Below are positions 212 to 41,462 of a DNA stretch of 41,462 nt, piece by piece; position 1 is the stretch's first letter; every line of letters begins with the position of its first letter. The stretch comes from Bacteroidales bacterium. Lineage in GTDB: Bacteria > Bacteroidota > Bacteroidia > Bacteroidales > UBA932. The notes beneath the pieces are model-generated. The model was not told the DNA's origin. It did not search any database and saw only the letters and a list, made by a program, of their open reading frames with translations. The DNA is taken from NCBI GenBank assembly GCA_017553545.1, contig JAFZKT010000064.1:1-41462 (forward strand), given 5' to 3'. Made by a program: the position numbers and the translations under genes.

Positions 212-307
212 GTGCCTCGGGCGGGAATCGAACCCGCACGGCCGTTTCGGGCCAAGGGATTTTCTTACCACTATGGCTTTCGCCACCATTTCTGTTTGTG
301 GTCCGGA

Positions 308-922
308 CTATTCCTTCACCGTGGGTTTCCCTTTAGGTGTGCCGTGTCTAGTCTCTGCACCTTCCTCCTTCCGGAGGCTTGGCTCAAGATTGCCTTCAGC
401 ATGGCCTGTTAAGGTTTCCTTGAATTTACGGCATTCTACATCTCTCTTTTCAGAGAGTGCACTCAATTGTGCTCTTCCTCTATAATTATTTGTAAGAGCG
501 TGGCAATTGGGGCAGAGGAGTTTCAGGTTTTCTATCCTGTTGTCTGTATTATTGCCATTAATGTGATGAATTTCAAGCGGGATTGGTCTCCCTTGCCATT
601 CAGATAGTTGGCATTCTTCACAAAAGTTAATACCAGTGGCTCTCCTATAACGCTCCCTCAATCTCCAGGAACAGCGATAGTTTGAGTCTTTAACAAAGAT
701 CTCCTTATCGTCAATGCTTTTCTTCGGCTTAAAGCCAAGTCCAACATTCCATCCCTGGCCAGTAAAATGGGAAGTGTCTAACCCATAGTCTTTAATCAGA
801 TGATGGATGGTCTTATAGTTGCCGCCAACGGGTCGTAAGTTCAATTGTCGAAGTACTCCGGCTATTGATTTACTCTTTGCTACAGCTACAATGACGTCTT
901 CTTTTGTATATTGAACTTTCAT
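308..922 (-). CDS. Intron-encoded HNH homing endonuclease
   Basis: A 204-aa protein encoded inside the group I intron. The N-terminal part (about residues 1-60) has the DNA-binding segment often seen in this HNH family (SIAGVLRQLNLRPVGGNYKT). The HNH nuclease spans roughly residues 95-150: a CEEC pair, IHHINGNNTDNRIENL, then CPNCHAL, giving the His, Asn and zinc-binding Cys pairs. It probably cleaves intronless tRNA-Leu alleles to drive homing; this is inferred from the family and location. The last 40 or so residues are encoded by the ribozyme core: the frame passes through elements P, Q and R, and the TAG stop (310-308) is part of element S. It has its own promoter-like sequence 8 nt before the ATG. 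Confidence 0.9.
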   Translation of the reverse strand: MKVQYTKEDVIVAVAKSKSIAGVLRQLNLRPVGGNYKTIHHLIKDYGLDTSHFTGQGWNVGLGFKPKKSIDDKEIFVKDSNYRCSWRLRERYRRATGINFCEECQLSEWQGRPIPLEIHHINGNNTDNRIENLKLLCPNCHALTNNYRGRAQLSALSEKRDVECRKFKETLTGHAEGNLEPSLRKEEGAETRHGTPKGKPTVKE

Positions 923-930
923 GGTAGAGG

Positions 931-961
931 CAAAGATAATACTTACTATCGTCTCTTACAA
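931..961 (-). promoter_or_regulatory. Promoter of the HNH ORF inside the intron
   Basis: On the minus strand TTG (961-959), a 20-nt spacer, then TATCTTTG (938-931) match the Bacteroidota -33/-7 pattern. The ATG at 922 follows after 8 nt, so the transcript would be leaderless or nearly so. Confidence 0.55.
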
Positions 962-1033
962 GTAATTATTTCAAAGAACTCGTCTAAGTCCCTCGTGTCT
1001 ACCATTCCACCACCAAGGCAAAATGTGGGACTG

Positions 1034-40423: not shown

Positions 40424-40442
40424 CCATCCCGAAAGGGAAAAT

Positions 40443-40492
40443 ATGTGGATAGATTTGGCTGCTTGCAACCACGTTAAAAAATGCTAAAATTA
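40443..40492 (+). ncRNA. SAM-II riboswitch
   Basis: P1 is ATGTGG (40443-40448) with CCACGT (40469-40474), 6 bp with one G-U. The loop has GATTTGGCTGCTTGCAA, close to the SAM-II pattern GAUUUAACCGUAUUGCAA recalled from the env12 sequence. Downstream ACGTTAAAAAATGCTAAAA supplies the pseudoknot strand: GCT (40483-40485) can pair with GGC in the loop. It lies directly before a terminator and metK, which fits feedback control by SAM. Confidence 0.85.
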
Positions 40493-40513
40493 CATTCATA
40501 AGTGTTTTGTGTT

Positions 40514-40554: not shown

Positions 40555-41462
40555 ATGAAGAACTATTTATTTACCAGCGAATCGGTTTCCGAAGGCCATC
40601 CGGACAAGGTGGCGGACCAGATCAGCGACGCCATCCTGGACGAATTCCTGAAGCAGGACCCGGAGGCGAAGGTGGCCTGCGAAAGTTTCTGCTCCACCGG
40701 CATGGTGGTGGTGATGGGCGAGGTGAAGGCCGAGGCCTACGTGGACATCCAGGGCACCGTGCGGGAGACCATCCGCCAGATCGGTTATACCAAGGCCGAA
40801 TATATGTTCGACGCCTCCAGCTGCGGGGTGATGAGCGCCCTGCACGAGCAGAGCCCGGACATCAACCGGGGCGTGGAGCGCGCGAAGGCCGAAGATCAAG
40901 GCGCCGGAGACCAGGGCATGATGTTCGGCTACGCCTGCCGGGATACGGAGGACTATATGCCGCTGGCGCTGTACCTGAGCCACAAAATGCTGCGGATACT
41001 CGCGCAGATCCGCCATCATGAAATCGGCCTGATGCCTTATCTGCGGCCGGACGCCAAGAGCCAGTTCACCATCGAATACGATGGGGATACCCGCCAGCCC
41101 GTGAAGGTGCACACCATCGTCCTGAGCACCCAGCACGACGAATTCGTGCCCGCTTCCCTGGGGCGGATGAGCTACAGGAAGGCGGTGGCCCAGTTCGGCC
41201 AGGCCCGCGTGGACCAGGCCATGCAGCAGAAGATCCGTGAGGACATCGAGAATATCGTGATTCCGCGTCTGAAGGCCGATCTGCCCGAAGCTACGGCGGC
41301 CCTTCTGCACGATTATGTGCTCCACGTCAATCCCACGGGGAAATTCGTCATCGGCGGCCCCCACGGGGACACCGGTCTTACGGGCCGAAAAATCATCGTG
41401 GACACCTACGGCGGCAAGGGTGCCCACGGCGGCGGCGCTTTCTCCGGCAAGGATCCGTCCAA
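40555..41462 (+). CDS. metK: S-adenosylmethionine synthetase (partial, 3' end off window)
   Basis: The first 302 codons are present. Seen: [37 protein letters not shown], the ATP loop [13 protein letters not shown], and [19 protein letters not shown] with [15 protein letters not shown] (the SAM synthetase signature). It makes SAM from methionine and ATP. The frame is open to the window edge. It is controlled by the SAM-II riboswitch and terminator just upstream, so its own product should shut off transcription. Confidence 0.96.

Follow-up and report, generated by a model that had tools for sequence, protein, structure and literature searches.

A phage-related group I intron carrying an HNH endonuclease frame in the tRNA-Leu(UAA) gene of Bacteroidales genomes

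The stretch analysed here, contig JAFZKT010000064.1 of the assembly GCA_017553545.1 (positions 1–41,462; hereafter the window), carries on its minus strand a tRNA-Leu(UAA) gene (1019–213; all coordinates follow the plus numbering) in which a group I intron of 722 nt separates U34 from A35. Joining of the two exons gave an acceptor stem with 7/7 pairs and an anticodon stem with 5/5 pairs (script score 12/12) with the anticodon UAA, and the long variable arm and the T arm were intact in the 3' exon. The insertion site of the window was read directly from the sequence; the site common to its relatives is given by construction, as the exon script admits only junctions that follow TT and precede A. 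An ARAGORN run did not detect the tRNA-Leu(UAA). The G+C content of the intron was 42.8%, against 58.3% for the window. A first-pass annotation made from the letters alone had placed an intron at this site of tRNA-Leu(UAA) and had read P1, the P, Q, R and S elements, a closing G and a P9-like hairpin. The placement was borne out, with the minus strand added and the exons pairing 12/12, and P1 to P9.1, P/Q/R/S and the terminal G could all be located (Table 1).

In a search of 881 bases, the Rfam model RF00028 scored 47.2 bits (E 9.7e-11) over positions 282–503 of the minus strand. The gathering score of the model is 50, and a whole-window Rfam search at the gathering threshold did not list the intron. 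The score probably falls below the cut-off because an HNH open reading frame (ORF) splits the intron. The covariance check proposed in the first-pass annotation therefore returned a group I match, though a sub-threshold one. A covariation alignment was prepared from 71 ORF-less introns out of 148 candidates (30 Bacteroidales, 26 phage and 15 other). Compensatory changes on both sides were observed in 36 of the 48 predicted pairs, including all six of P3 as well as pairs of P4, P5, P6, P8, P9.1, P2 and the anticodon stem, and chance could be excluded on this basis. P7 and P9 can form in the reference sequence and lay outside the pair set predicted by RNAalifold; P7 was altered on both sides in the phage LR756501 (GACTT/AAGTC). 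From its P/Q/R/S elements and its P3 and P7 pairings, the window element is assigned a group I core. Group I introns of tRNA genes are commonly placed in subgroup IC3; the window intron matched the general RF00028 model only.

U34 faces G464 of the likely internal guide sequence and the last intron base is G264, giving the U.G pair and the terminal G, and the UU of the guide is able to pair with A35–A36 (P10). A GAGUUC nearer the 5' end was tried as the guide and rejected. In the window it forms a 10-bp pairing to the exon, yet other long introns do not keep its U34.G wobble, whereas TTGAGTGC was found 3' of the ORF in 73 of the 75 members of the main Bacteroidales clade. The downstream candidate was therefore taken as the guide. 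A hairpin at the 5' splice site could be drawn with 7–10 pairs in the long Bacteroidales introns (median 9, n = 21, vs 6 in short ones, n = 45), its U34.G pair not being conserved among them. Its folding energy did not separate long from short introns (medians −7.4 vs −8.5, the short ones being lower).

The intron contains an ORF of 204 amino acids (aa) for which both Pfam profiles, HNH_3 and HNH, scored above their cut-offs. It shows an HNH motif with flanking cysteines, and the C, H and N columns of alignment A2 were invariant. A search of solved structures by sequence with the HNH protein gave no match, and NCBIfam returned only matches far below its cut-offs, ZorE and IscB among them. As the profile of ORF-less cores aligned unbroken to intron nt 517–722, nt 1–516 could be taken as a single cassette in the P1 loop, running from the splice site to the guide. 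The tail of the HNH frame enters the core helices: it crosses the guide, P2, P3, P4, P5, P6, the P7 5' strand, P3' and P8 and ends at a TAG within S. Counted from the guide to S, ORF and core overlap by about 160 nt. Among the 23 Bacteroidales introns of at least 600 nt, the longest frame ended at the S TAG in 13, in the P6 loop in 7 and elsewhere in 3; ten of the 13 frames that ended at the S TAG had 208 aa or more. To see if continuity of the frame to S is specially kept, long and short Bacteroidales introns were compared: 10/18 long ORF-bearing ones ended at S vs 19/45 short ones. Since this difference is unconvincing, selection on the ORF tail is not claimed.

Table 1. Positions of the split tRNA gene, its intron and the intron features in the window.
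Feature	Position	Strand	Details
5' exon, acceptor strand to U34	986–1019	minus	GCCTTGG...GAGGGACTT; 7/7 pairs with 3' acceptor strand
5' splice-site hairpin	972–995	minus	CGAGGGACTT (986–995) and GAGTTCTTTG (972–981), 10 bp, loop AGAC, −9.6 kcal/mol
Group I intron, 722 nt, terminal G264	264–985	minus	Exon script, RF00028 and core profile
Putative promoter	931–962	minus	CTTG (959–962), 20-nt spacer, TATCTTTG (931–938), 8 nt before ORF start
HNH endonuclease ORF, 204 aa	308–922	minus	Pfam HNH_3 1.7e-6, HNH 1.6e-4; PHROG 10822 1.5e-46 (residues 3–169)
Last 54 codons and stop of HNH ORF	308–472	minus	Almost wholly within ribozyme core
Likely internal guide sequence UUGAGUGC	459–466	minus	GAGU opposite exon ACUU, with U34.G at splice site
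P2 hairpin CTCTC/GAGAG	442–457	minus	Covarying helix in 71 relatives
P3 5' strand TGCCGT	428–433	minus	Alignment columns 70–75 pair with 167–172; compensatory changes in 6/6 pairs
P element to Q element, P5 between	384–423	minus	P4 5' TCAAG 419–423; P4 3' CTTGA 384–388
R element	345–360	minus	P7 5' strand GACTA at 349–353
P3 3' strand ACGGCA	340–345	minus	Covariation alignment
S element AAGGAATAGTCC	305–316	minus	P7 3' strand TAGTC at 306–310; TAG 308–310 is the HNH stop codon
P9	268–301	minus	CCAC 298–301 / GTGG 268–271; can form
P9.1		minus	TGGC 282–285 / GCCA 274–277; covaries
3' exon, A35 to discriminator A (213)	213–263	minus	AAAATCCC...CCGAGGCA

The promoter consensus of Bacteroidetes is TTTG/TAnnTTTG. 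The motif T[TC]TG-N20-TAnnTTT was present in 12 of the 16 Bacteroidales leaders examined (7 of the 23 long introns having been excluded beforehand) vs 0.8% of shuffles, and in 1/14 phage leaders (L236). The window was one of the four leaders without the full motif, its −33 box CTTG being followed by N20 and TATCTTTG. The exact TAnnTTTG box occurred upstream of the start in 7/17 leaders, including that of the window, vs 2.2% of shuffles. The leader motif fits the consensus, and the HNH ORF seems to have its own promoter. Expression from a separate HNH mRNA would mean that ribosomes do not cross the core of the pre-tRNA.

The PBP2 encoded beside the tRNA showed 74–81% aa identity to the seven best-ranked named Bacteroidales metagenome-assembled genomes (MAGs), and RodA was 79% identical in the best locus (L175) and 60–73% identical in the other named loci that matched over most of its length. 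These identities place the window in a Bacteroidales host, where the first-pass annotation had spoken of a Bacteroidota-like genome. The genome is a 1.76-Mb MAG of a gut bacterium, of 80.5% completeness. Among the 31 tRNAs of this assembly the leucine anticodons were CAA, UAG and GAG, and no second or contiguous tRNA-Leu(UAA), an outcome that had been named beforehand as a reason for doubt, was found in it. UUA is a rare codon here: 11 ORFs held 624 leucine codons, 12 of them UUA, and it was present in rodA, pbp2 and metK.

RF00028 matches were obtained in 72 of 398 genomes of the family, and both tRNA-Leu(UAA) exons were complete in 58 of these 72, all matched loci except that of G179 having been fetched. 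The other 14 comprised G324 and G349, which look like different introns, G179, and 11 that were cut by a contig end or failed in the script. An uninterrupted tRNA-Leu(UAA) pattern (at most 2 mismatches) matched 243/398 family genomes, including only 2 of the 58 intron-bearing ones (G312 and G394); of the 14 unconfirmed genomes, G005, G179, G216 and G349 matched it as well. The interrupted and uninterrupted alleles thus appear largely to exclude each other in the family, so that an intron-bearing cell should need splicing to decode UUA. The gene could instead be dead or mis-assembled, with no splicing and with UUA read by another tRNA or left undecoded. The rarity of UUA, the incomplete assembly and the contig end 212 bp downstream of the tRNA would agree with such a state, which we nevertheless regard as highly improbable: the core helices and both exons are all intact, 58 family genomes repeat the same arrangement with both exons complete, and the core-coded part shows tighter constraint at synonymous sites (median dS 0.35) than the HNH part, where dS is saturated.

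The exon script identified both tRNA-Leu exons in 169/188 loci, or 168 once the 5' exon of L111 and a second reading in L034, both false, had been removed. These 168 introns consisted of 93 with Bacteroidales-type exons (79 distinct) and 75 others, which were labelled as 63 Pseudomonadota, 10 Acidobacteriota and 2 of no assigned phylum. The 93 included 34 labelled Bacteroidota, 57 from genomes of the genus or family of the window, one 'Bacterium' and the window itself. The scan of named genomes returned at least 119 stretches, many from rumen or gut Bacteroidales MAGs, and 'Candidatus Cryptobacteroides onthequi' (L096) also carries the intron. The window is thus not an isolated case, something that the first-pass annotation, which knew of no Bacteroidota example, had no means of seeing. 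In a sample of 395 genomes of the phylum Bacteroidota, in which the genome of the window was the sole member of its family, the specific pattern matched that genome and G550. The latter (L391), of the same class as the window, was rejected as a second case, since its group I R and S elements precede the 3' exon of a different tRNA.

Scanning IMG/VR for relatives of the HNH protein yielded 32 loci. Matches in L233–L239 covered 197–200 HNH residues, the core-coded part included, at 53–57% identity. L233, L235 and L236 were tRNA-Leu(UAA) introns, and L237 had the same ORF plan within a tRNA array, for which the exon script gave no confirmation. The ORFs of these four loci (277–285 aa from the start used) cross the core, enter a domain in L8 and end at the S TAG; the same L1-to-L8 plan with an end at the S TAG was seen in L356 and L369. 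By eye, the C-terminal L8 domain looks zinc-finger-like and helix-turn-helix-like, and a Pfam search with it gave nothing above the cut-off. Free-standing phage homologues (L242, L247 and L251) combine the HNH part with a similar C-terminal domain, and no R or S element was found in these three loci when looked for. Because the free-standing proteins have a linker at this point, the core can be said to sit in frame at the linker position, and in the related phages the ribozyme core is read as encoding the linker between the HNH and C-terminal domains. Among 19 distinct phage introns of at least 600 nt, five bridged L1 and L8, nine had an L1 ORF stopping near the core start, three that resemble one another carried the HNH ORF in L6 and ended it within R, and two were without such an ORF. 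Separately, a permuted tmRNA (RF04321, above cut-off; L243, 2384–2639) and a standard tmRNA (L238, 2086–2458) were found near the HNH genes of these phage contigs.

A pattern running from S to the 3' exon matched at least 120 viral stretches. In total, 129 phage loci were examined by the script (L233–L239 and L265–L386, some sharing a contig). Both tRNA-Leu(UAA) exons were present in 108 of them, with introns of 185–1014 nt; of the remainder, 13 failed the long-variable-arm test, 6 were without a 5' exon and 2 gave no match. Eleven of the 13 failures (L278, L288, L302, L312, L314, L322, L327, L328, L337, L354 and L360) are tRNAs of class I, with a short variable loop, whose UAA anticodon is interrupted at the same U34/A35 site by the same intron; as for the other two, L311 was cut and L329 gave no tRNA. 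The sequences suggest that the intron recognises the anticodon arm and not tRNA-Leu as such. The cultured Agrobacterium phage Atu_ph07 (MF403008.1, about 112890–113251, complement) carries a 278-nt intron in tRNA-Leu(UAA) with no annotated gene inside, and the feature table of its record lists no tRNA-Leu(UAA) at the intron locus. The huge phage LR756501 has a short tRNA-Leu(UAA) intron (about 280 nt or less), and in the huge phage LR756511 (595 kb; L389, 578–1363) an HNH ORF of the same family lies in L6 of a tRNA-Leu(UAA) intron, its stop TAG falling within the R element.

An intron tree was constructed with IQ-TREE from 231 cores and 200 columns, including members from Pseudomonadota, Acidobacteriota, Bacteroidales and phages. 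Of the 79 distinct Bacteroidales introns, 75 formed one clade (99/98), which was joined by L233 and L235 (98/88), then by L356 (100/98) and then by three more rows (62/64); the next nodes brought the phage rows to seven in all (98/86) and then to 21 (99/94). The tRNA-Leu(UAA) introns of Pseudomonadota and Acidobacteriota were separate from this clade. In a tree of 51 HNH proteins, all 17 Bacteroidales ones formed one clade (100/99). Kinship of the Bacteroidales introns to phage introns is well supported by the intron tree, and transfer from or through phages is less supported as to its direction. The horizontal transfer suggested in the first-pass annotation gains support from the same tree and is narrowed to a phage-associated lineage. 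The four remaining introns (L071, L117, L145 and L170) form a second set, from MAGs whose titles name Prevotellaceae or Bacteroidaceae; they made a clade of their own (100/100) outside the main one, placed with weak support (81/29) among other bacterial rows, and L117 and L145 hold HNH-like frames.

As the approximately unbiased (AU) test does not reject a separate clade of the 21 phage rows (p 0.092), both the nesting and the direction of transfer rest on the branch supports. Transfer in reverse, with phages mainly taking the intron from Bacteroidales and other bacterial chromosomes, would fit the sister relation that this test allows between the Bacteroidales introns and their 21 nearest phage introns, and phages do acquire tRNA genes from their hosts. 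We consider it unlikely, since the Bacteroidales clade is reached through a series of phage branches (98/88, 100/98, 98/86 and 99/94, with a further, weak step at 62/64) and the two-domain ORF is common to the nearest phage introns L233, L235 and L356. The lack of an L8 insert in the 23 Bacteroidales introns of at least 600 nt likewise fits domain loss in Bacteroidales.

Selection was evaluated in 17 ORF-bearing Bacteroidales introns (136 pairs) by synonymous (dS) and nonsynonymous (dN) divergence. For the HNH part, dS exceeded 1.5 or was undefined in 133 pairs; in the three pairs below 1.5 the median dN/dS was 0.165, and dN was 0.21–0.24 in three pairs involving the window. The core-coded part had a median dS of 0.353 and dN of 0.101 (135 pairs). 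The HNH part is, by these estimates, under purifying selection, and the pattern suggests that selection acts on the protein in the HNH part but on the RNA in the core-coded part. The HNH gene may nonetheless be a mere passenger of an intron that spread via homologous recombination or a trans-acting enzyme, as many introns are without an intact ORF and free-standing homologues occur in phages. The purifying selection speaks against this, and an HNH of the same family placed in L1, in L1 and L8, or in L6 at the same tRNA site suggests repeated association with the target; the passenger role is accordingly given a low probability.

By length, 46 of the 79 distinct introns were below 240 nt, 12 were of 240–660 nt and 21 were longer. 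Read from the guide, the frame stayed open over 30 codons or more in 44/45 short Bacteroidales introns vs 10/51 ORF-less phage introns (Fisher 2.5e-16) and 57/72 other bacterial introns (Fisher 0.0045 vs the short Bacteroidales ones); these counts leave out 30 rows without a recognised guide, and the p-values are generous because the rows are related. The HNH gene looks to have been deleted stepwise in relatives in the manner of a homing cycle, and the lengths and fossil frames fit invasion, selection while spreading, and then decay. Bacteroidales might instead have held the intron from old by vertical descent and become patchy by repeated loss, as argued for cyanobacteria and plastids. In agreement with this, the family introns fall in one clade, and RodA matches were found in 33/187 of the loci searched, as would be expected of inheritance at one place. 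Such descent is, however, rather improbable: outside the family 1/394 Bacteroidota genomes matched (G550), and in a different tRNA; the uninterrupted gene is present in the 243 family genomes noted above; phage introns are the closest kin in the tree; and the fossil frame distinguishes the short introns from the ORF-less phage ones.

The reading we hold to be probable is that a mobile, phage-related group I intron colonised the tRNA-Leu(UAA) gene of Bacteroidales and that its enzyme gene decayed later. In the pre-tRNA, P1, formed by exon ACUU and guide GAGU with U34.G at the splice site, would dock on the P3–P9 core; two transesterifications, guanosine attacking first, would then free the intron and ligate U34 with A35, so that the UAA anticodon is rebuilt. 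That splicing takes place is inferred from the intact anatomy. The HNH protein, whose gene lies in the P1 loop, may nick or cut the uninterrupted tRNA-Leu(UAA) near the anticodon, after which repair would copy the intron in. Its probable production from the putative intronic promoter, on a separate mRNA beginning near the start codon, would spare the folding of the pre-tRNA from translation of the core. The intron would have come from or through phages that carry the same intron in tRNA-Leu(UAA), the kinship being visible in the tree and the direction being the more conjectural part. Decay of the enzyme gene by deletion after invasion would leave ORF-less introns, as the comparison of relatives supports. 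The extended view, that phages shuttle the tRNA-Leu(UAA) intron together with its HNH gene into bacterial chromosomes and that the core is a translated linker selected both as catalyst and as protein, is held with only slightly better than even confidence.

Several observations weigh against the colonisation by a phage-related intron proposed here. The RF00028 score lies under the Rfam cut-off (47.2 vs 50), and the 10-bp splice-site hairpin can, by its pairing, be expected to compete with P1. A second tRNA-Leu(UAA) could be missing from the assembly, which is 80.5% complete, and the −33 box of the window is imperfect (CTTG). The phage sequences are mostly metagenomic contigs, and the ORF of the phage relative L238 stops soon after R without bridging the core. 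The bootstrap of the 200-column intron tree had not settled, the AU test does not reject a tree, 101 lower in log-likelihood, in which the 21 phage rows group apart from the Bacteroidales introns, and the HNH tree does not fix the place of the Bacteroidales clade among the phage proteins.

Other features were noted in passing. The contigs of many relatives likewise end near the tRNA. On the minus strand of positions 1–60 of the window, a frame with the start MVKIRRRQRCPNCG, which resembles a zinc-ribbon transposase, runs off the contig, and the palindrome TTATTGAAACGCGTTTCAATAA adjoins it. An ordinary SAM-II riboswitch (63.9 bits, 40439–40497, plus strand) lies upstream of the SAM synthetase gene at 40555. 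A contig of the same genus (G324:C33, 140493–162663) holds four group I intron matches in about 22 kb; the match examined (L031) was not in tRNA-Leu, and the region is perhaps a prophage.

The introns of cyanobacteria and plastids lie in tRNA-Leu(UAA) between U34 and A35 and have a group I core and a terminal G, and those of cyanobacteria are not known to carry an ORF. The window shares the tRNA and the site with them and differs by its Bacteroidales host and its HNH ORF in L1; the intron tree held no cyanobacterial sequences. These introns were reportedly described by Xu in 1990, Paquin in 1997 and Rudi in 2002. The introns of Pseudomonadota and Acidobacteriota (75 loci in L061–L179) have the same site and core, but all are of 202–260 nt, with no room for an HNH ORF. 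The phage introns L233, L235 and L356 share with the window the site and an L1 ORF that runs through the core to the S TAG, and have the C-terminal domain in L8 that the window is without. At this tRNA site the introns of Atu_ph07 and LR756501 are short, and LR756511 differs by the placement of its HNH in L6.

That an endonuclease ORF can overlap a group I core is already on record (Hausner 2014, legend of Fig. 2b, PMC3984707). In Edgell 2011 (PMC3073962), the Synechocystis tRNA-fMet intron is described with a PD-(D/E)XK enzyme in P1 and a 61-nt core overlap at P1/P2, the ORF for I-TevI in the T4 td intron has its last 20 nt within the core, 'core creep' is proposed, and the largest of the five ORF/core overlaps listed in Table 1 is 81 nt. 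The Synechocystis case resembles the window in that an enzyme ORF in P1 overlaps the core, and differs in the tRNA, the enzyme family and the extent (61 vs about 160 nt). The T4 td endonuclease ORF ends in the core as here, whereas the ORF of the window codes nearly the whole core and those of the phage relatives join two domains. Hausner 2014 states that all phage introns observed to date lay in protein-coding genes despite the many phage tRNA genes (PMC3984707). In searches of open-licence full texts, no paper among those listed was found to report a group I intron in Bacteroidota tRNA-Leu or in phage tRNA genes, and no use of the word 'intron' was found in PMC7162821. Measured against this open-licence literature, the clade of Bacteroidales introns with phage tRNA-Leu(UAA) relatives and the intron of Atu_ph07 appear to be new.

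Introns of tRNA-Leu(UAA) serve as a textbook example when the age of group I introns and their inheritance are discussed. Their presence in Bacteroidales and their abundance in phage tRNA genes offer a vector for spread between phyla. The graded series of ORFs, which stop near the core start, in P6 or at S, or which bridge L1 to L8, makes 'core creep' directly testable by comparison and by mutation, and the cultured phage Atu_ph07 provides a bench handle for a phage tRNA intron.

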